Origin: a virus
Virus record (IMG/VR): IMGVR_UViG_3300039203_000020
Span: 1-31,638 of that record
DNA: 31,638 nt
Strand: one strand, 5' to 3'
Shown here: positions 1 through 31,638 of the stretch, in pieces
How the letters are laid out: each line of letters opens with the position of its first letter
Numbering within the stretch: the first letter of the stretch is position 1
The notes under the pieces: generated by a model
What the model was told of the DNA's origin: nothing
What the model saw: the letters and a program-made list of their open reading frames with translations, nothing else
Database searches by the model: none
Program-made: the position numbers and the translations under genes

Positions 1-79
1 ACGGGCTGGCCCATGGGTCAGCGATCAGTGAGAGGAGATCCGGCTCCTCGACGGGGGAGGTTGCGAGTTGGGTGGTCAT
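1..79 (-). CDS. Partial early-operon protein (N-terminus only)
   Basis: The reading frame opens with ATG at 79 and runs off the left edge of the window, so only the first 26 residues (MTTQLATSPVEEPDL...) are visible. They are acidic and show no recognisable domain. Its ATG overlaps the stop of the gene at 76-333 in an ATGA tetranucleotide, the junction used throughout this operon, which is the main reason to believe it. Function cannot be assigned. As the next gene in the leftward early operon it may be the start of a larger replication or recombination gene, but that is only inference from position. Confidence 0.5.
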   Translation of the reverse strand, partial: MTTQLATSPVEEPDLLSLIADPWASP

Positions 80-333
80 GCGCGCACCCGCTCGGGACGG
101 TGAGTGCCGCACGTCGAGCGGTAGCCGTCAGCGGTAGGCGTCCCGCAGGAGACAGGGTTCTTGCAGCCGCGCTCGTCGCACACCGGGACAAGCTCCATGC
201 CCTTGCACGCGGGGCAGCCGTAGACGGCCTCACCCTCGTCGAACGGGTGCGCCCCAACCAGGAGGCCGCCCCACACCGTGATGGTGCCGCAGTCCTCGCA
301 GGACCACCGGCTCGGAGCCAGCGCGGTACTCAC
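76..333 (-). CDS. Small zinc-binding hypothetical protein
   Basis: An 85-residue protein with several cysteine pairs: CEDC near residue 12, CPAC near 37, CDERGC near 47 and two more cysteines toward the C-terminus (VSCGT, STCGT). This spacing is typical of small zinc-ribbon proteins that stabilise a minimal fold or bind nucleic acid or protein. It has no catalytic motif. The start is a GTG at 333, overlapping the stop of the upstream membrane-protein gene (GTGA), so it is very likely translated by coupling. It sits in the leftward early operon expressed when the switch goes lytic. The role is unknown; the zinc-binding call rests on cysteine spacing only. Confidence 0.6.
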   Translation of the reverse strand: MSTALAPSRWSCEDCGTITVWGGLLVGAHPFDEGEAVYGCPACKGMELVPVCDERGCKNPVSCGTPTADGYRSTCGTHRPERVRA

Positions 334-515
334 AGCGCCCACCGCCACGCGACCAGCACGAGCGGGACCACGCACACCCACGCCGCCACCGCGACCGCCC
401 ACAGCAGCGCCGACACGGCCGCCCACGGGTCCGCGCCGGCTTCGGCCTCGGGGGTCGGCGTGGCCCACGGGCGCGTGGAGAAGTCGCTCGTGAAGGACGG
501 CTCGCGGTCGGTCAT
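330..515 (-). CDS. Small membrane protein
   Basis: A 61-residue protein with a hydrophilic N-terminal half (MTDREPSFTSDFST...) and a long hydrophobic C-terminal half (about residues 33-60, WAAVSALLWAVAVAAWVC and onward). That is long enough for one membrane span and perhaps a tight hairpin. Its ATG overlaps the stop of the upstream HNH gene (ATGA), and its own stop overlaps the next start, so it is an integral part of the early operon. Such small membrane proteins are common in actinophage early regions and some act in superinfection exclusion. Nothing in the sequence proves that here. Confidence 0.6.
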   Translation of the reverse strand: MTDREPSFTSDFSTRPWATPTPEAEAGADPWAAVSALLWAVAVAAWVCVVPLVLVAWRWAL

Positions 516-937
516 GCTGACACCCGCTGGGCGTGCTCCGCATCGAGTCGGCGCTGGTAACGCCGAACCGCTTCTCGGCGGCAGGTACGACAGTCGCGCG
601 ACCCCTTGGGTGTCAGGTACGTGTTCATCTCGTCGTAGGCGTGGCCCTGGGGACAGTGCGTCCGGAGCCCCTGAGGGTTGTCCTTGTTCCACGCCTGCGT
701 TCGCCGATCGGCCCACCGAGTGTTCGCGGGTGAGTAGTCACCGTTGTTGTCGATCCTGTCAAGCGACATGCTTTCGGGCTTCGAGCCGAGGTCGGCCATG
801 TAGTTGGCGAAGGTCAGCCAGCGGTCGCAGACCTTGATCCCTCGTCCGCCGTAGCGCGCGTAGCTGGGGAAGGTCGGCTCCGTGCAGCGTCGGATCATGG
901 ACCGCCAGCGGTAGTAGTCGGTGCGCGGGCCGGTCAT
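512..937 (-). CDS. HNH endonuclease, phage early-region type
   Basis: A 141-residue protein of the small HNH type common in phages. The N-terminal half carries WRSMIRRC...YGGRGI.VCDRW..F.NYMADLG, followed by the core SLDRIDNNGDYSP.NTRWA, where D-R-I-D-N-N-G and N-x-R-W form the HNH-like metal and DNA contacts. The C-terminal third has a second zinc-like motif, HCPQGH...RDCRTCRR (about residues 94-121). Known relatives cut double-stranded DNA and often behave as free-standing homing enzymes. The ATG at 937 overlaps the stop of the HTH gene, so it is the second gene of the leftward early operon. Fold confidence is high; whether it is mobile or serves packaging or host takeover is open. Confidence 0.85.
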   Translation of the reverse strand: MTGPRTDYYRWRSMIRRCTEPTFPSYARYGGRGIKVCDRWLTFANYMADLGSKPESMSLDRIDNNGDYSPANTRWADRRTQAWNKDNPQGLRTHCPQGHAYDEMNTYLTPKGSRDCRTCRREAVRRYQRRLDAEHAQRVSA

Positions 938-1131
938 GCGACACCAGCCGCACGGTCGAGCGCGACGCGCTCGACCTCCTCGGGGGTGAAGAGGAACGCG
1001 CCGCGCAGACCGGGGAGTTTCTGGACGGGATCGATCTTGCCGAAGGCGACCCAGCGGGAGAGGGTGGAGCGGTCGATCTGGAGTTGTTCGCACACATCGG
1101 CGCTGGTGACAAACTGGGGGGTGTTGTGCAT
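934..1131 (-). CDS. Helix-turn-helix protein, excisionase/Cro-like
   Basis: A 65-residue MerR/excisionase-type winged-helix protein. After a short leader comes TSADVCEQLQIDRSTLSRWV (helix-turn-helix, about residues 9-28), then LRGAFLFTPEEVERVAL, the wing and final helix typical of the Xis/HTH_17 family. Small proteins of this kind direct excision with the integrase or act as Cro. It is the first leftward gene from the switch region, divergent from the repressor. I place the start at ATG 1131 rather than the upstream ATG at 1140, because a TTGACA/CAAGAT promoter puts the transcription start at or next to 1131, giving a leaderless mRNA; no ribosome binding site precedes either ATG. Its own start lies inside an operator-like inverted repeat. 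Xis versus Cro cannot be decided from sequence. Confidence 0.8.
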   Translation of the reverse strand: MHNTPQFVTSADVCEQLQIDRSTLSRWVAFGKIDPVQKLPGLRGAFLFTPEEVERVALDRAAGVA

Positions 1132-1159
1132 GGGTGTCATCTTGTGCCATGCACAACAC
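1121..1159. promoter_or_regulatory. Operator-like inverted repeat over the early promoter
   Basis: GTGTTGTGCATGG at 1121-1133 is perfectly inverted as CCATGCACAACAC at 1147-1159, leaving a 13-base spacer. The right arm covers the spacer between the -35 and -10 boxes of the leftward promoter and the left arm covers its start codon. The core half-site TGTGCAT recurs at 1221-1227 near the repressor promoter. Position and symmetry fit a binding site for the repressor or for the HTH protein itself; binding is inferred. Confidence 0.6.
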
Positions 1160-1167
1160 TGTGTCAA
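1131..1167 (-). promoter_or_regulatory. Early leftward promoter, leaderless
   Basis: Read on the minus strand: a perfect -35 box TTGACA (1167-1162), a 17-base spacer, a -10-like CAAGAT (1144-1139), then 7 bases, then the ATG of the HTH gene at 1131. The transcript would start at or next to the ATG, so the mRNA is predicted to be leaderless. The whole element is embedded in the operator-like inverted repeat. Confidence 0.65.
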
Positions 1168-1213
1168 TACCTAAGGCCCGGCGAGTCTCCACGAATTTGT
1201 CCAGCGTGGCATC

Positions 1214-1250
1214 TTGTGTCTGTGCATAACCTTGTGTCAGAATCACCCGC
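1214..1250 (+). promoter_or_regulatory. Repressor promoter, leaderless
   Basis: TTGTGT (1214-1219), an 18-base spacer and CAGAAT (1238-1243) end exactly 7 bases before the repressor ATG at 1251; no Shine-Dalgarno is present. The segment 1210-1243 is an imperfect copy of 1138-1168: both start with CATCTTGTG and contain TGTGTCA 22-23 bases later. The repressor could therefore bind here too and regulate itself. The boxes match consensus only moderately. Confidence 0.5.
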
Positions 1251-1619
1251 ATGAGTCAGACACAGAGCAAGGATCAGCTTGCCTTCGACCTGATCGACCG
1301 ACTGCACAAGTCGATGCGGGTCAGCGGACACAGCACGCGGACGCTCGGCGCCGCCCTCGGGACTCACCGCAACACGATCGCCAACTACCTCGCCGGCCGG
1401 ATCACTCCGAACCGGCGAACCCTGGTGGCATGGGCGCTAGCGGTAGGACACGGCGTCACAGCCGAGTGGCTCGAGACGGGCCAAGGGGATCCGCTGTCCC
1501 CTCCTACCGGCACCCCCCGTGACGACGGCGACGCGGCCCTAGCACGTCTCGCAGCGAAGAACCGTGCGCGACACGCCGGGGGCGGTGCTACCCGCCGGTA
1601 TCAGCCGGTGGCAGCATAG
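1251..1619 (+). CDS. Immunity repressor (HTH)
   Basis: A 122-residue DNA-binding protein. Residues about 30-65 (TLGAALGTHRNTIANYLAGR followed by TPNRRTLVAWALA) form a clear lambda-repressor/XRE-like helix-turn-helix of the kind seen in actinophage immunity repressors. The C-terminal third is hydrophilic with no protease or dimerisation domain such as LexA/CI S24, so it would not be a RecA-cleaved repressor. It faces the leftward early operon across a 119 bp region with operator-like repeats, the classic switch arrangement. The ATG has no ribosome binding site and is predicted to be leaderless. The last residues, PVAA, resemble an ssrA-like C-terminal degradation signal; this is suggestive only. 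The repressor call rests on the fold, small size and divergent position next to the integrase. Confidence 0.8.
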   Translation: MSQTQSKDQLAFDLIDRLHKSMRVSGHSTRTLGAALGTHRNTIANYLAGRITPNRRTLVAWALAVGHGVTAEWLETGQGDPLSPPTGTPRDDGDAALARLAAKNRARHAGGGATRRYQPVAA

Positions 1620-1640
1620 GGATACGAACGCGTATCCCTA
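1617..1640 (+). terminator. Perfect hairpin at the repressor stop codon
   Basis: TAGGGATACG (1617-1626) and CGTATCCCTA (1631-1640) form a perfect 10 bp stem with an AACG loop. The stem begins with the repressor's own TAG stop codon. There is no U-rich tail, so it is a non-canonical terminator or an mRNA-stabilising hairpin; an operator role is also possible. Confidence 0.5.
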
Positions 1641-1696
1641 CTGCACCGTCACGATTGACCGAGACAACCGTTTCTAGATGGGGGAGAAAGAACGCC

Positions 1697-2008
1697 ATGA
1701 GCGAGACCGCCCGCCTCACCCTGACCGACTTCCTGCTCGCGCGGATCGCGGAGGACGAGGCCCGCTTCCGTCGCGTCGAGTTCGAGCTCTCCTATATCAA
1801 CCTGTTCGACCGACTGCTGGCCGAGTGCGAGGCGAAGCGGCGGATCGTGGAGTTGCGCTACTCGTGGAACCTGCAAGCTGAGCGAAACCCCGAGCCGCCG
1901 TTCAGCTCTATCTTCCAGACTCAGGTCAACACGGCCGACGCGATCCTCCGCGCGCTCGCCCTCCCCTACGCCGACCACCCGGACTACCGCGATGAATGGC
2001 AGCCGTGA
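1697..2008 (+). CDS. DUF6221-family small protein (copy 1)
   Basis: A 103-residue protein with the DUF6221 signature: TLTDFLLARIAEDEA near the N-terminus, LLAECEAKRRIVE in the middle and LALPYADHPDYRDEW at the end. It lacks the central HIARHDPARV segment seen in the copy at 4971-5450, so it is a shortened member. The start is ATG 1697, preceded by a GGGGGAG purine run. An earlier in-frame ATG at 1655 would leave no such site. It lies between repressor and integrase and overlaps the integrase start, so it is in the lysogenic transcription unit. The family is frequent in Streptomyces and actinophage genomes, with no known function. Confidence 0.75.
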   Translation: MSETARLTLTDFLLARIAEDEARFRRVEFELSYINLFDRLLAECEAKRRIVELRYSWNLQAERNPEPPFSSIFQTQVNTADAILRALALPYADHPDYRDEWQP

Positions 2009-2814
2009 GCGACACCCCCATCGCCGACGCCTACGAGCGGTGGCTCCAGCTCTGCGACTGGTCACCGAGGACCGTGAAGGCCCGGACCACGCTGGCCCGG
2101 GGGCGGCTGAGGGCATGGGGGCTCGAGGGGATGACGCCGGAGAACATCTTCGAGTGGCTGGGCCGCGAGGGTCTGAGCCGCTGGACCAGGGCCACCTACT
2201 ACGCCCACCTCAAGGACTTCTGCAAGTTCCTGGTCGTAGGCGGGTACATCGAGGAGACCCCGATGGACTCCGAGCTGGTCCACCAGCCGAAGCGGCCTAA
2301 GTCGCTGCCCCGGCCACTGTCGGAGGAGGAGGTCGAGCGGGTGCTGCGCGCAGCGAAGGGCCGCGAGCGTGACTGGATCATGCTGGCCCTGCTCGCCGGC
2401 CTCCGGGTCCACGAGATTGCGAAGATCCGAGGCGAGGACGTCTCCCCCAACGGGATCTATGTGCTGGGCAAGGGGGCCGTGGAGGCCATCCTGCCGATTC
2501 ACCCCGACCTCTGGGTGATGGCGCAGCGCTACCCGCGGCACGGCTGGTGGTTCCCCAACCCGCAGGGCGACCACATCCACCCCGACACGATCACGGCCCG
2601 TGTCACAGCGCTGTTCCGCCCGCTCGGCATCAGCGAGGGGTCGGTCCACCGGCTCCGGCACGTCTACGGCACGCGGCTCCTGCGGTCCGGCGTCCATGTG
2701 CGGCGGGTGCAGACGCTGATGCGACACGGGAGCCTGGAGACCACGGCGCTTTACACGGCGGTGGACGAGGACGAGCTCCAGGCTGCGATCAACCTGTTGC
2801 CGTCGATCGCCTGA
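1996..2814 (+). CDS. int: Tyrosine-recombinase integrase (armless)
   Basis: A 272-residue tyrosine recombinase that integrates and excises the phage DNA at attP/attB. Residues about 8-100 are the SAM-like core-binding domain (ERWLQLCDWSPRTVKAR...ATYYAHLKDFCKFLV). The catalytic domain follows with all expected residues: Arg137 (LLAGLRVHEI), Lys159, His218-x-x-Arg221 (HRLRH), His244 (LMRHGS) and nucleophile Tyr253 (TALYTAVD). The protein starts directly at the core-binding domain, so the usual N-terminal arm-binding domain of phage integrases is missing, as in the 'simple' armless integrases described for mycobacteriophage Brujita. The start is ATG 1996, or GTG 2005, which overlaps the upstream stop as GTGA; both lack a strong ribosome binding site, so coupling is likely. 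The attP core lies about 770 bp downstream. Confidence 0.95.
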   Translation: MAAVSDTPIADAYERWLQLCDWSPRTVKARTTLARGRLRAWGLEGMTPENIFEWLGREGLSRWTRATYYAHLKDFCKFLVVGGYIEETPMDSELVHQPKRPKSLPRPLSEEEVERVLRAAKGRERDWIMLALLAGLRVHEIAKIRGEDVSPNGIYVLGKGAVEAILPIHPDLWVMAQRYPRHGWWFPNPQGDHIHPDTITARVTALFRPLGISEGSVHRLRHVYGTRLLRSGVHVRRVQTLMRHGSLETTALYTAVDEDELQAAINLLPSIA

Positions 2815-2815
2815 C

Positions 2816-3010
2816 TCACGGCCTGCCGCCCGCCGCGATCCACGTCCTCAGCGCGTCCAGCTTCGCCTTCGCCTCGGCCTCGGTCTTGCCGGTGACGGTG
2901 ACGCGGCGTCGGGCTCCGGTGCGGGTGTAGCCGTGCTCGATGGTGCCGAGCCAGCGGCCGTCGGAGGAGCGGCGGTAGACGGAGCCGGTGCGGTACTGGC
3001 GGCGGGTCAT
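2816..3010 (-). CDS. Stand-alone integrase arm-binding-like domain
   Basis: A 64-residue basic protein (MTRRQYRTGSVYRRSSDG...). The pattern G-S-V-Y-R-R-S-S-D-G-R-W-x-G-T-I..G-Y-T-R-T-G-x-R-R-R-V-T-V-T-G-K-T-E-A-E-A-x-A-K-L matches the three-stranded AP2-like N-terminal domain that tyrosine integrases use to bind arm-type sites. That domain is normally fused to the integrase; here it is a separate gene on the opposite strand, with its stop one base from the integrase stop (convergent). It overlaps the upstream gene by ATGA (start ATG 3010) and so belongs to the leftward 5.9-2.8 kb operon. A role in trans with the integrase (directionality factor, arm-site binder or competitor) is inference; a free DNA-binding protein is the conservative call. 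Confidence 0.7.
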   Translation of the reverse strand: MTRRQYRTGSVYRRSSDGRWLGTIEHGYTRTGARRRVTVTGKTEAEAKAKLDALRTWIAAGGRP

Positions 3011-3432
3011 TCGGTGTGAGCGCGGTTGGCGGTGCAGACCATGTGCATACAGATCTCCCGCTCGTCCTCTTCGCGCGTGACCTCGACGTCGCGGGGAGCT
3101 CCACACGTCCAGCAGAAACCGTACAGCTCCACCAGCCGCCGCTGTTCGGCCGCCCGGGTGTTCATGGTGGGGCGGGACGCGGACCACAGCTCGGTGATCC
3201 GTGGCGCGATGTCGTCGCCCACTTGGTCGGGGGTGAAGTAGCCGGTGCCAATGAGTGCCTCCCGCGCGAGGCTGACGCGCCTCTCGGCGACACTCACGGC
3301 CTCGGCCCGCACCCGCTCGTCGTGGGCAGCGACGGCCTCCGCGACGGGCCGTGCCATTCGCTCGATATCTTCAGCGACCGCCTCCATGACCCCTGCCATC
3401 GCCAGCACCATCTTCTGCGCCTCGTCGCTCAT
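3007..3432 (-). CDS. Hypothetical protein with C-terminal zinc motif
   Basis: A 141-residue protein. The first half (about residues 1-75) is a helical, Ala/Glu/Arg-rich stretch with coiled-coil character. The second half contains FCWTCGAPRDV and, about 20 residues later, CMHMVC, a probable four-cysteine zinc knuckle. I choose ATG 3432, preceded by a GGGAGAAG purine run, over ATG 3495, because the extra 21 residues look like non-coding translation. It is the first gene left of the attP core and overlaps the arm-domain gene, suggesting joint expression. The family is not recognised; a DNA- or protein-binding role is likely but unproven. Confidence 0.65.
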   Translation of the reverse strand: MSDEAQKMVLAMAGVMEAVAEDIERMARPVAEAVAAHDERVRAEAVSVAERRVSLAREALIGTGYFTPDQVGDDIAPRITELWSASRPTMNTRAAEQRRLVELYGFCWTCGAPRDVEVTREEDEREICMHMVCTANRAHTE

Positions 3433-3586
3433 CGCTTCTCCCGTCCGCTCGCGCGTAGTGTTTCCATGTCTCCAACCTAGCACGACGTCAGCCATGTTTA
3501 CAGCCTTCTCAACGCCGGTCCTGTCCTGTCAGGACCCCGTTTTCACGCTCAATCCGGCCTCATTCCCTACCTCTTACGCCTAGTAT
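3433..3586. other. Non-coding flank of attP
   Basis: About 150 bases with no convincing gene between the start of the 3007-3432 gene and the tRNA-like core. This stretch is visibly richer in A/T and pyrimidine runs than its surroundings (for example the CCTCATTCCCTACCTCTTAC region at 3558-3578). It plausibly holds the promoter of the leftward pair 3432-2816: a TGCTAGGTT extended -10-like element reads leftward near 3470. No integrase arm repeats could be picked out by eye. Confidence 0.4.
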
Positions 3587-3635
3587 CCCTTCCCTTACAA
3601 GGAAGATGTCAGGGGTTCGAATCCCTTTGCGCCCA
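3587..3635 (+). other. attP: attP core: 3' half of tRNA-Val(UAC)
   Basis: The segment folds as the 3' half of a class I tRNA. The anticodon stem is CTTCC/GGAAG (3589-3593 and 3601-3605) around the loop CTTACAA (3594-3600), whose anticodon TAC reads valine. Next come the variable loop ATGTC and the T stem-loop AGGGG-TTCGAAT-CCCTT (3611-3627). The 3' acceptor strand TGCGCCC with discriminator A (3628-3635) completes it. There is no D-arm or 5' acceptor strand upstream, so this is not a functional tRNA. A tRNA 3' end is the usual attB of tyrosine integrases, and the phage carries the matching piece so that integration restores the gene. Exact ends of the identity block need the host sequence. 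Confidence 0.85.
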
Positions 3636-3638
3636 CGC

Positions 3639-3791
3639 TCAGGGGCCGGTCTCGGGGCCGGGTTGTGTAGCCAAGTCGTCAGCCTTCTGGCGGACTACCG
3701 TCGTCCGCCGTGGGTACAAGATCGTGCCGGCCAGCACCGCGAACACCGTCCCCAGCCACGTTGACGCGACCCGTTCGTCCGGGTCGGTCAT
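3639..3791 (-). CDS. Small membrane protein
   Basis: A 50-residue protein with one predicted membrane span (about residues 10-26, STWLGTVFAVLAGTILY) followed by a basic, hydrophilic tail. The start ATG 3791 overlaps the stop of the upstream gene; its stop lies only 3 bases from the tRNA-like core. Integration would therefore put this gene at one prophage end. No family is recognised. Confidence 0.6.
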   Translation of the reverse strand: MTDPDERVASTWLGTVFAVLAGTILYPRRTTVVRQKADDLATQPGPETGP

Positions 3792-3898
3792 CGCCACCGT
3801 CCCGAGGCGAACATGACCCCGACGAACGCGCAGAATGTGAGACCGGCCGCGACTAGCCCCTCCCACCCGAATACCTGCCACACGTCGTACAGGCTCAC
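3788..3898 (-). CDS. Very small membrane protein
   Basis: A 36-residue frame starting at GTG 3898 (GTGA overlap with the preceding stop) and ending in an ATGA overlap with the next gene. Most of it is hydrophobic (GLVAAGLTFCAFVGVMF, about residues 14-30) and it ends in a basic GRWR tail, consistent with one membrane span. The tight overlaps at both ends are the best evidence that it is real. Function unknown. Confidence 0.5.
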   Translation of the reverse strand: MSLYDVWQVFGWEGLVAAGLTFCAFVGVMFASGRWR

Positions 3899-4086
3899 GT
3901 CCCCATCTCCCCGTCCGGCACGGCTTCGATCCCGAACTGGTCGATCGTCCGCTCGCAGGTGGCACACTCGGCGATCACATCGTGACCTCCGGGCCAGGTG
4001 TGCAGGTGGCCGCCCGCCGCCTCGATCGCTTTCAGTCGAGCGGCGTGAGCGGCGTACCCCTCGGGCGTGGGGCGGTCGACGCTCAC
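3895..4086 (-). CDS. Small hypothetical protein with CxxC motif
   Basis: A 63-residue protein with HLHTWPGGHDVIAECATCER in its centre (His and Cys residues around 27-45), a likely zinc site, and an acidic C-terminus. GTG start at 4086 overlaps the preceding DUF6221 stop (GTGA), and its own stop overlaps the following GTG. No known family is recognised; it is one of several small Cys-pair proteins in this operon. Confidence 0.6.
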   Translation of the reverse strand: MSVDRPTPEGYAAHAARLKAIEAAGGHLHTWPGGHDVIAECATCERTIDQFGIEAVPDGEMGT

Positions 4087-27907: not shown

Positions 27908-28678
27908 CTAGGCCGACTTGCGCAGGTTGGTCGCGGTCGCGATCCGTCGCGCAAGATCAAGGGGCAGGCTGTTCGCCTGCGGGGTCTCCGGGTCGGGGTT
28001 GGGGACACCGAGGACGGTCGCCAGGTCCGCCTGCGCCTCGTCGAGGGCGGCGTCAGCGGTGACCAGGGAGTCGAGCACGGAGGCGAGCTTGGACATGTTC
28101 GCGGCGCTGATCGCCTTGCCGGCCCGAATCTCGCGGACGATCGTCTCCGCGAACACGCACATCGCCTCCCGCTCATCGCGGGCGCGGACCGATGCGGTCG
28201 TGTTCGGGTTCGCCGGGTATGTCACCACCGACACGTCACCACCGGACAGTGCCGCCTCGTTGATGGTGCGCTGGGTGTAGTCCGGCGACCACGAGTCGCC
28301 CCCGGTGGGCACCCGGAAGGCGAACGACATCTGGTCGAGGTCCCCGCGACGCATCTTCGGCAGCAGCCGCTGCACGTCCGGGTCGGTCGGGTCCAGCGTG
28401 GCCCGGGCGTGGAGGCCCTGGGAGTCCGCGGAGAGGGTCAGTGTGCCCGACTTGGTGCGGGCGAGCGGTTGGCCCTCGTGGTCGATCAGGAGCCGCACGT
28501 CAGGGCCGGCGGCGAGGGTCTTCTCGAACGCGGTCGGCGCGATCCGCTCGACGAACGGGCCGAGGTCGTACTCCTGGTTGAAGGTCGCGGCGTACCCCTC
28601 GAACACGGGCGCCCCGGACTCCTCGCGGATCTCGAACGATGCCTCGACGGTGCGCTGCTCGAACATGATCGCGCTCAT
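27908..28678 (-). CDS. HK97-family prohead protease
   Basis: A 256-residue serine protease that trims the capsid precursor. Motifs: VFEGYAATFNQEYDLGPFVE, VRLLIDHEGQPLARTKSGTL (catalytic His67) and MRRGDLDQMSFAFRVP (catalytic Ser118), then the C-terminal conserved GGDVSVVTYPANPNTTASV. Both key residues are present. The extra ~85 C-terminal residues are acidic and helical, perhaps self-removed. ATG 28678 overlaps the portal stop (ATGA). Confidence 0.93.
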   Translation of the reverse strand: MSAIMFEQRTVEASFEIREESGAPVFEGYAATFNQEYDLGPFVERIAPTAFEKTLAAGPDVRLLIDHEGQPLARTKSGTLTLSADSQGLHARATLDPTDPDVQRLLPKMRRGDLDQMSFAFRVPTGGDSWSPDYTQRTINEAALSGGDVSVVTYPANPNTTASVRARDEREAMCVFAETIVREIRAGKAISAANMSKLASVLDSLVTADAALDEAQADLATVLGVPNPDPETPQANSLPLDLARRIATATNLRKSA

Positions 28679-29928
28679 ACGGTGGCTCCTTGCGGGTCGT
28701 CGGCCGGAACGGCCGCTACGGGTCCAGTCGGCAACTTGAGGGCTGGGAGTGCCTTCACCCCGCCCTTGGCGGTGATCGTCAGCGGCACCATGTCGGCCTC
28801 GGCCTTCTGGTCGTCGGTCATCGGTGGCAGCCCGTCACGAGCGCGGATCTCCGAAGGCACCAGGACCTTGCCCGCCAGGTGCATGTTGTCGACCGTGGCC
28901 TGCGTGGCGGCATCGGTGCGCAGCAGCGCGGCGGTGTTGAATCGCACCGTCTGTGGGGCCAGGAGCAGCGAGGACACGGCGTCCTCGAGGCGCTTGAGCC
29001 AGAACGACACCGAATAGGTGAGGAAGTCCAGCGACCGCTGCTCGACGTTCGCATAGGTCATCGAGTCGCCCTCGGTGCCGCCGACCATCGTCGCGGGAAC
29101 GTGGAAGAACTTGGCGATCTGGTTCACGTTCGCCTGCTGAGTGGCGAGGAACTGTGACTCCTCGGGCGAGACCTGGATCTGCGCCCACTTCAGTCCGGCG
29201 CCGATCACCACCGGCTCACGACCACGCACAGCGGCGATGATGCGGTCCTTGATCGTGCGCGCCTGCTCGGCGTTGATCTGCTGGTCGCTGGTCAGGATCG
29301 AGGACGGGTGCGCGCCGTCGAAGAAGAAGTCGGAGGCGAACTTGCGGGAGAAGATGTCCACCCCGATGGTCGCCGCGGCATAGGCGATCGGAGACAGTCC
29401 AACCCTCGTGCCCGGCAGCGTCATGCCACGCACATGCCAGATGTCAGCGGAGCGGTCGACCTGCGAGATGCCGATCTTGTAGACCGTGCGGCCCGTCTCA
29501 CGGTCGCGGGTCACCTTCACGTTGTCCGGGCTCAGTAGCTCGATCTGGGTGACCGTCGGGGCCCCGTCGATCATCTCGCGGGTCAGCAGGCCGTAGGCGT
29601 TCCCGCGGAGCAGCAGCGATGCCATCAGCATGTGCAGCCACTCGCTCTGTGTCATTCCGTCGGCCGGCTTCGTAATCACCAGCGGGTCGTCGACGCGACG
29701 TGGCTCACCGTCCGCGTTCAGCCGATAGGTCTCCAGCGGCAGCATCGAGACCGCGTTCGACAGCAGCCCCACACACGCCCACACGGTCGGCACCCCAAGC
29801 GCCCGCTCCGGGGTCGCCTCGATCGCCGAACCCACCCCGCCGTACATCGTCGCGCCAGGGAAGGGCGGGATCGGCGGCTCGGGGAACGTCGGCCCGGTGC
29901 GCTGCTCCTTGCCGAGGAAGATGCCCAC
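28675..29928 (-). CDS. Portal protein
   Basis: About 417 residues. The phage portal (HK97/SPP1-type) pattern is clear: VPTVWACVGLLSNAVSMLPL, TQSEWLHMLMASLLLRGNAY, IGISQVDRSADIWHVRGMTL, EESQFLATQQANVNQIAKFF HVPATMVGGT and NVEQRSLDFLTYSVSFWLKR. The dodecameric portal is the DNA entry and exit channel and the docking point for terminase and connector. I prefer GTG 29928, which has AAGGAG at proper distance, over the in-frame GTG 29934, which overlaps that site. Confidence 0.95.
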   Translation of the reverse strand: MGIFLGKEQRTGPTFPEPPIPPFPGATMYGGVGSAIEATPERALGVPTVWACVGLLSNAVSMLPLETYRLNADGEPRRVDDPLVITKPADGMTQSEWLHMLMASLLLRGNAYGLLTREMIDGAPTVTQIELLSPDNVKVTRDRETGRTVYKIGISQVDRSADIWHVRGMTLPGTRVGLSPIAYAAATIGVDIFSRKFASDFFFDGAHPSSILTSDQQINAEQARTIKDRIIAAVRGREPVVIGAGLKWAQIQVSPEESQFLATQQANVNQIAKFFHVPATMVGGTEGDSMTYANVEQRSLDFLTYSVSFWLKRLEDAVSSLLLAPQTVRFNTAALLRTDAATQATVDNMHLAGKVLVPSEIRARDGLPPMTDDQKAEADMVPLTITAKGGVKALPALKLPTGPVAAVPADDPQGATV

Positions 29929-29942
29929 ACGCACTCCTTCGG

Positions 29943-30085: not shown

Positions 30086-31597
30086 TCACCAGACGTTCAG
30101 CGCGGGGTCAAGTTGGGATGATGCGCCCCATGATGCGAGGGTCACGGCCTCGAGCATCGAGATGTCGCCGGCCGATGTCTTCCGCGCCCACGTCCAGCGG
30201 TCGCCCACGTTCCGCTTCGCCGCGAACGACACCGCGAGGTCGAGCTCGGGATGGCTGGGGTGAGTCAGCGTCCGTTCCTGCACGCGGTCGAACAGGGTCG
30301 CGGAGGCGTCCAGCACGTCGCTGGTCTTCGCCAGGGTCACATTGATTCCGGCCGCCCACATCGCGGGGATCAGATCGGCGGTCGGCCCCCGCTCATCGAC
30401 CACGACGACGCACTGACGTTCGTCCTGGATCCGTTTCAGCTCGGGGACCAGCCAGCCCACTCCAGCCCGACGGTCGACCGCACCGACGACCAGCCGCTCG
30501 CCGTCGACGCCCGCAGCGCCGATCGAGGCGAACCGCCGGTCGAACGAAACCGCTGCGCCGATCGCACCCACGACCGGAGTGACCGCGTCGTCCGCGCAGT
30601 TCTCCCACTCGGGCAGCATCTCCTCGGGCTTCGCACCCAGGAGCGGCCACATGTTCAGGTACTGCGCAGCCCAGCCGCGGACGGGGTCGGGATCGTCGAA
30701 CTCTGGCTCGTCCTGTCCGGCCAGCGCCGCGGCGTACTTGCGGGCCATCAGGTCGCGGCGGTCCTGCGTCCAGTGCGGAGAGGCCGCTCGCCAGACAGCC
30801 TCGTCGGACATGTCGGCGTCTGGATGGGCGCCCCACAGCAGGAGGAGAACGTCAGGGTCGGCGTTTCGTAGAGCGGCCAACAGTCGACGCCGCATCAGGC
30901 TGGTAGCCCTGACGTGCGCCGTCGACGTGAGATGGAGCTGCGCCCAGAGTCGCTCCAGCAGCGCCGGTTCGATGCCGTCCGTGATCGATGTCGGGTCCAC
31001 ATCCCAGGACTCGTCAACCTGTCCGTAACCGACGTCGTATCCGTAGACGGCAGTGTCGGCGCGTAGGAGCCACCTGGACTCATCGGGGGCTTCGACCTCT
31101 TGGCCGCCGTTGAGTCGGATGACCTTCCAGTCCTTCCGCTCGGCCCACTGCCAAGCGCCCCGATGAATCTCCTTGCCGACCGCCAGGTCCTTCGACACCA
31201 GCATCACAAGCTGCTTCTCGCCGATGCGGTGAGCGTTGGCGATGCGCCATAGTGCGACCACCCGAAGGCGGGTGGACTTGCCGATACGTCTCGGCCCGGA
31301 GTCGATGACCTCTCGCCACACCAGGGCGCCGGCCTTGTCGTGCTCCAGTTGGCGGGTGATGGCAAGCGCCTGCCACCAGCGCAGCGTCAGACCTAGTTCA
31401 GCCTTCGCCCACTTCACACACTCGGCGCCGTATGACCCGACCGCGCGAGGGTGCGGGCCGGACATCGCCAGCGGGATCGCCGCATTGGCGGGCACCTTCC
31501 GAAAGCGCGTGAGCCACTTGGCCGAGCAGGCTTCCATCGGGTCGCCGCGGGCCTCGAGGATGCCCGTCACGCCGGTGCGGTTCGCGAGCGTGGTCAT
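30086..31597 (-). CDS. terL: Terminase large subunit
   Basis: A 503-residue packaging motor. The ATPase Walker A is the variant GPRRIGKST (Lys107 with the 31597 start) and Walker B is GQVDES (Asp195, Glu196). The C-terminal nuclease half shows an acidic triad in VVGAIGAAVSFDRRFASIGA, VVVVDERGPTADL and KTSAGDISMLEAV. The enzyme cuts concatemers and pumps DNA through the portal. I prefer ATG 31597, which has GAGGGG upstream, over GTG 31606. The small terminase subunit would lie beyond the right edge of the window. Confidence 0.95.
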   Translation of the reverse strand: MTTLANRTGVTGILEARGDPMEACSAKWLTRFRKVPANAAIPLAMSGPHPRAVGSYGAECVKWAKAELGLTLRWWQALAITRQLEHDKAGALVWREVIDSGPRRIGKSTRLRVVALWRIANAHRIGEKQLVMLVSKDLAVGKEIHRGAWQWAERKDWKVIRLNGGQEVEAPDESRWLLRADTAVYGYDVGYGQVDESWDVDPTSITDGIEPALLERLWAQLHLTSTAHVRATSLMRRRLLAALRNADPDVLLLLWGAHPDADMSDEAVWRAASPHWTQDRRDLMARKYAAALAGQDEPEFDDPDPVRGWAAQYLNMWPLLGAKPEEMLPEWENCADDAVTPVVGAIGAAVSFDRRFASIGAAGVDGERLVVGAVDRRAGVGWLVPELKRIQDERQCVVVVDERGPTADLIPAMWAAGINVTLAKTSDVLDASATLFDRVQERTLTHPSHPELDLAVSFAAKRNVGDRWTWARKTSAGDISMLEAVTLASWGASSQLDPALNVW

Positions 31598-31638
31598 CGA
31601 GACCACCCCTCGGAGAGAGAAAGTTTTTCATGGCGGGG
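31598..31638. other. Right edge, probably end of preceding gene
   Basis: Forty-one bases upstream of the terminase start. A short poly-A run (AAAAA read leftward) and GAGGGG lie here; no gene can be defined because the window stops. The small terminase subunit is expected just outside. Confidence 0.3.

Follow-up and report, generated by a model that had tools for sequence, protein, structure and literature searches.

A conserved palindromic operator predicted between divergent repressor and xis/cro-like genes of an actinophage contig, with a degenerate copy on the repressor side

The window analysed here, which is the whole stretch of 31,638 bases, is a phage contig from a virus record. It carries terminase (30086-31606) and portal (28675-29934) genes, both on the minus strand, and since few early genes are found at its left end, the record may be incomplete. 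A leftward xis/cro-like gene and a rightward rep gene diverge from a common control region, and the surrounding features are the following:

934-1131, minus strand: xis/cro-like HTH_17 gene, its start taken as ATG 1131-1129 (MHNTPQ...)
1251-1619, plus strand: rep, immunity repressor of 122 aa with the C-terminus ...RYQPVAA (assigned by phrog_2328, tblastn and tree)
1697-2008, plus strand: DUF6221 gene (Pfam domain match), inserted between rep and int
1996-2814, plus strand: tyrosine integrase of 272 aa (Pfam Phage_integrase, 6e-20)
3590-3637, plus strand: tRNA-Val 3' half as candidate attP core (matched in 21 of 296 actinomycete genomes)

The xis product matched Pfam HTH_17 (3.7e-6), phrog_66, annotated as excisionase and transcriptional regulator (7e-7), and Phayonce gp34 (48%, tblastn); its reading frame stays open upstream of the chosen ATG as far as a TTG at 1167. 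Rep matched the phrog_2328 transcriptional repressors (4.9e-17) and is 45% identical to the BigNuz and Nazo immunity repressors over 62-67% of its length (tblastn), while its profile is matched by solved structures of the 434 repressor; judged by sequence, it is an Xre/434-repressor-like helix-turn-helix protein. The pairing of a small Xre-type Rep with a divergent HTH_17 gene is the layout of the phrog_2328 repressor plus HTH_17 xis switches, and these sequence matches place both genes in the actinophage Rep/Xis family, best known for integration-dependent immunity (Mycobacterium phages BigNuz and Phayonce). The lysogeny module is flanked on both sides by HNH-endonuclease-like coding on the minus strand (512-940 and 2816-3187; phrog_374 and phrog_16880). 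A DNA search for distant relatives of positions 1-4000 returned short integrase, endonuclease and tRNA matches only, and a megablast search with 5000-29999 returned no matches.

Searching viral contigs with the single Rep protein retrieved no relatives, and an alignment of seven Reps used as query retrieved 53 loci from viral contigs and a further 15 from genomes of bacteria and archaea. Together with eight phage loci and the window these made 77 loci, of which 58 were kept at 85% Rep identity; within the phage loci L002-L017 (n = 16), viral-contig copies stand in for five cluster P loci, and the counts exclude Ryan, Nyceirae and Corgi, in which no divergent rep/xis pair was apparent. In the tree (57 rows, L070 dropped), which is poorly resolved overall, the window Rep is sister (99/96) to that of L018 (= L079), a Metallococcus carri prophage with an in-gene att site. 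This nearest Rep (56% over residues 7-87) belongs to a locus that shares the TTGACA box and whose xis starts with MHTE. Unlike in the window, the L018 repressor gene ends in a tRNA-like tail that places att inside rep, and in the L018/L079 Rep some 90 additional residues separate this tail from the HTH domain.

Between the two start codons the control region displays the following elements:

1121-1159, no strand: inverted repeat of the earlier note, arms 1121-1133 and 1147-1159 (sequence, shuffles)
1124-1131, plus strand: TTGTGCAT, a lone half-site that covers the xis start codon; left arm of that inverted repeat (sequence)
1139-1167, minus strand: presumed leftward early promoter P_R, with -35 TTGACA (1167-1162), a 17-nt spacer and -10 CAAGAT (1144-1139)
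1142-1156, no strand: predicted core operator O_R TTGTGCCATGCACAA, a 15-bp palindrome one mismatch from the family palindrome TTGTGCA-W-TGCACAA
1206-1243, no strand: second block, an imperfect same-direction copy of 1134-1168, with a leftward promoter-like module CTGACA (1240-1235)-18-CAAGAT (1216-1211)
1214-1229, no strand: degenerate second operator TTGTGTC-TG-TGCATAA, presumed O_rep (3 mismatches of 14, spacer 2)
1238-1243, plus strand: presumed rep promoter -10 CAGAAT, called on sequence only and followed after 7 nt by the rep ATG, a leaderless geometry

The presumed leftward promoter reads TTGACA-17-CAAGAT-7-ATG on the minus strand, and the palindrome fills its spacer and overlaps the -10. 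The same TTGACA-17-CAAGAT is found exactly in relatives L026 and L069. The -10 CAAGAT keeps three of six consensus bases, a strict sigma-70 scan reported no promoter within 900-1700, and no -35 was recognised for rep, for which the strict scan likewise reported nothing. Sequences, positions, conservation and gene families are direct observations, and from them we infer promoter activity and leaderless transcripts; the geometry of the start codon suggests that the xis message would be leaderless.

An earlier note had described this region as an operator pair made of a 13 bp inverted repeat and a duplicated promoter block, each copy covering one of the two divergent promoters. The inverted repeat was recovered exactly, with GTGTTGTGCATGG at 1121-1133 and its reverse complement at 1147-1159 separated by 13 nt, and so were the three TGTGCAT heptamers (1125, 1149 on the reverse strand, and 1221); elsewhere in the window a search for this heptamer returned just 3042 and 11786. 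The duplicated block is likewise present and imperfect, its copies being gapped and longer than described (about 1134-1172 and 1206-1247). When 1118-1250 was shuffled 1000 times with dinucleotides preserved, the direct-repeat score never exceeded 32 (observed, 45) and the perfect-arm length never exceeded 11 (observed, 13), and the inverted repeat is the only perfect one in the window with arms of at least 12 and a spacer of 3-40. Both repeats are therefore real and beyond chance. That they reflect accidental low-complexity similarity in an AT-richer intergenic stretch, a reading with which the negative strict promoter scan agrees, is contradicted by these shuffle tests and by conservation across genera, and its probability is negligible.

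The conserved element became apparent when the intergenic regions of relatives were compared side by side, in which the palindrome TTGTGCA-W-TGCACAA recurs. Sites with at most three mismatches from TTGTGCAWTGCACAA precede rep in 19 of the 58 non-redundant loci, the window included, and 16 of these 19 sites lie on the xis side; when a spacer of 1 or 2 was allowed, the palindrome was present in 27 of 57 loci. Among the 16 xis-side sites, a TTG taken as the -35 box is located 10-11 nt upstream in 12 (L024, L032, L081 and L082 depart from this spacing, L024 and L032 being BigNuz-type) and a start codon 9-11 nt downstream in 12 (the exceptions being L024, L028, L032 and L082). In the window, 1142-1156 is the sole site with at most four mismatches, and the palindrome reaches p = 0.005, the lowest value that 200 shuffles can give. 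A weight matrix derived from the sites of 15 relatives, with the window left out, ranked it first at 23.2 bits against 7.4 bits for the runner-up in 31.6 kb, the matrix being independent of the window and not of the consensus, since the consensus was first read by eye in the same relatives and their sites were chosen with it. A pattern search with up to two mismatches likewise gave one site in the window and matched 15 of 19 other records, some of them with two sites. By sequence, the window carries a predicted palindromic operator of a Rep/Xis switch, placed within the P_R spacer and immediately ahead of xis; dispersed asymmetric sites of the stoperator type (cluster A, L5) were not seen, with one palindromic site in the 31.6 kb of a window that is probably incomplete.

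This conservation also decides how the arms of the 13 bp inverted repeat should be paired. The palindrome 1142-1156 arises when TTGTGC at 1142 is matched with the right arm, and it is this pairing, not the one between the two arms of the repeat, that is kept among relatives; the whole repeat was for this reason set aside as the operator. It might nevertheless act in its own right as a wide-spaced operator or a hairpin, given that its arms are perfect beyond the shuffles and that L018, L045 and Barebow also have a half-site at the xis start beyond the palindrome (xis frames of at least 45 aa starting with ATGCACA are found in Barebow, L018, L045 and L081). We regard this as very doubtful: the distance from the start-codon half-site to the palindrome varies (18 nt in the window, 24 nt in Barebow and L045), the constant part is the 15-16 bp palindrome, and the right arm would be absent from a transcript starting near 1131.

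The second block does not mirror the first. Both copies share one orientation whereas the two promoters diverge, so the block repeats the leftward promoter/operator module and does not provide each promoter with its own copy; what stands of the operator pair is an operator region between the divergent repressor and xis/cro-like genes, with one site in the leftward early promoter. When the P_R module was compared with the second block, the direct score was 38 (p = 0.002) and the inverted score 18 (p = 0.08). Among the 15 relatives no direct copy is comparable, the best scoring 24, so that the duplication looks specific to this phage; several of them show inverted similarity instead. Retention of the repeats among relatives is accordingly divided, the palindrome being kept and the tandem block absent. 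In L018, the nearest relative, the main operator is the spacer-2 form TTATGCA-AA-TGCACAT and not the 15-mer. The site within the second block at 1214-1229 is the sole spacer-2 site with at most three mismatches in the window and scores low under the spacer-1 matrix. As a direct rather than inverted copy of the P_R module, the block could alternatively be another leftward promoter in tandem (CTGACA-18-CAAGAT), and not a rep operator, so that two promoters would serve the early operon. This appears unlikely, in view of its degraded -35 and of the other 15 relatives, in which no direct copy scores above 24; the block also covers the presumed -10 of rep (CAGAAT, 1238-1243), the place expected for O_rep. 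Overall, the sequence evidence identifies a genuine operator region that had been partly misread, its conserved unit being the 15-bp palindrome, accompanied on the rep side by a phage-specific degenerate copy.

Which protein reads the palindrome was considered by comparing recognition helices. Where the Rep recognition helix fits [RKN]N[TAS], palindrome sites are present in 19 of 29 loci, against 0 of 29 others (Fisher test, 4e-8), and with a spacer of 1-2 in 24 of 29 versus 3 of 28; on the tree this association is not significant (3 independent pairs, median p 0.5), and helix covariation was for that reason rejected as independent evidence and is not used as proof. Instead of Rep, the xis/cro-like HTH_17 protein could be the main reader, acting as a Cro-like autorepressor: the palindrome adjoins and partly covers the xis start, cluster P relatives of Xis are annotated as excisionase and transcriptional regulator, and Xis accompanies Rep in nearly all loci, a co-inheritance that cannot separate the two candidates. 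Excisionases of the HTH_17 xis type, however, tend to favour direct repeats, which counts against Xis, and a palindrome suits a dimeric Xre-type repressor. In phage BPs, moreover, the published footprint and gel-shift work describes the repressor (gp33) binding a palindrome between the PR -35 and -10 and a degenerate ORep (PMC4557955). We therefore consider Xis distinctly improbable as the main reader, and palindromic symmetry together with the published BPs footprints (PMC4557955) favours Rep as the binder.

The arrangement is probably best explained as the rep/xis switch of a temperate actinophage, in which Rep dimers occupy 1142-1156 and so shut off the leftward early promoter, and regulate their own gene from 1214-1229. 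A Rep dimer would bind the 15-bp palindrome, which fills the spacer of P_R between -35 and -10 and overlaps the -10, and would exclude RNA polymerase, keeping the xis/cro-like gene and the early operon off in the lysogen. At higher concentration, Rep would limit its own synthesis through the weaker 2-bp-spacer copy over the presumed rep promoter, and the lone half-site at the start of xis may contribute cooperativity; we infer Rep binding, autoregulation and this role of the half-site from the arrangement of the sites.

Such a switch is already known in kind, and the window adds a second, weaker predicted operator copy and a candidate attachment site outside the repressor gene. In phage lambda the divergent repressor gene cI and the cro gene likewise have operators between them, while the tripartite operators and the cleavage domain of the lambda CI/Cro switch were not seen in the window. 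The cluster P mycobacteriophages (BigNuz, Phayonce, Purky, Shipwreck and Jebeks) resemble the window in their divergent rep/xis pair, in the integrase that follows rep and in a palindrome upstream of xis, which in them is TGTGCAWTGCACAA. They differ from it in that their attP is inside rep (a tRNA-like segment) whereas the candidate attP of the window is 2 kb away, and in lacking both the DUF6221 gene between rep and int and the direct block copy after the operator. The BPs gp33 system of cluster G shares the palindromic operator between PR -35 and -10, the degenerate rep-side operator and a variable half-site spacing, as described in PMC4557955. According to the same source, the BPs operator has a different sequence (CGACATATGTCG), five regions are bound compared with one strong and one weak predicted site here, and attP lies within the repressor gene.

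As integration-dependent immunity would predict, a tRNA T-arm is found inside rep in 34 of 58 family members, versus 4 of 1160 shuffled controls; it is absent from the rep gene of the window. Searches for an attP inside this gene (six genomes, then 296 actinomycete genomes) gave short GC-rich matches only, plus the homologous rep of one genome (G001), and the DNA from rep to int (1251-1996) had no tRNA-like match in the 296 actinomycete genomes; the in-rep attP common core that characterizes BPs/BigNuz-type immunity was thus not found as a tRNA type. Downstream of int and 2 kb from rep, 3590-3637 matched, with E values of 1e-6 or below, the 3' halves of tRNA-Val genes in 21 of 296 actinomycete genomes. 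ARAGORN called tRNA-Val at eight of eight loci tested (seven of the 12 loci fetched for matches to 3590-3637, plus L122), and the sole 5-pair T-arm of the window is at 3611. We regard this segment as a candidate attP, a tRNA remnant being the alternative. A perfect 10-bp-arm hairpin, TAGGGATACG/CGTATCCCTA, covers the rep stop codon (1617-1640) and may be a terminator without a T run or a recombinase core; support for it as the integrase core was sought and not found.

The window Rep ends in -VAA, a possible ssrA-like tag of the kind associated with BPs/BigNuz-type immunity, and an -AA end is present in 24 of 58 family members. Speculatively, the phage may descend from an integration-dependent lineage in which the attachment site left rep, the -VAA tail stayed, and the doubled promoter/operator block would compensate through a raised sensitivity to scarce repressor. 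We give this history a small chance only. With the attachment site out of rep and the tail kept, the switch would have to work with a permanently tagged repressor, and the window would capture the transition between integration-dependent switches and classical ones. Precedents for the departures seen in the window are described in PMC5559632, which reports phages with tagged repressors whose attP was not identified and, in GMA5, a gene inserted between rep and int. Integration-dependent switches have been proposed to be ancestral (PMC9635641, PMC4557955), and the window, as an apparent natural case of this repressor family uncoupled from in-gene integration, bears on that proposal.

Phages and prophages linked to Mycobacterium, Curtobacterium, Brevibacterium and Metallococcus have one recurrent operator type in common, TTGTGCA-N(1-2)-TGCACAA. 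If Rep binds it, immunity specificity would be predictable from sequence and cross-immunity across genera would be directly testable. A term search of the cluster P paper (PMC9635641) found no mention of an operator, and a literature search combining the heptamer with repressor, phage and operator gave no phage-switch paper among the first 10 matches listed. Some relatives carry additional sites: in L020 (2431-2445) and L021 (843-857) a second palindrome, TAGTGCAATGCACTA, is located at the end of rep, approximately 420 bp from the main operator, and in the records of L025, L029 and L031 (G306, G309 and G310) another operator-like site, TTGTGCTTTGCACTA, lies at a distance of 4.4-4.9 kb from the main operator and possibly marks a second controlled promoter.
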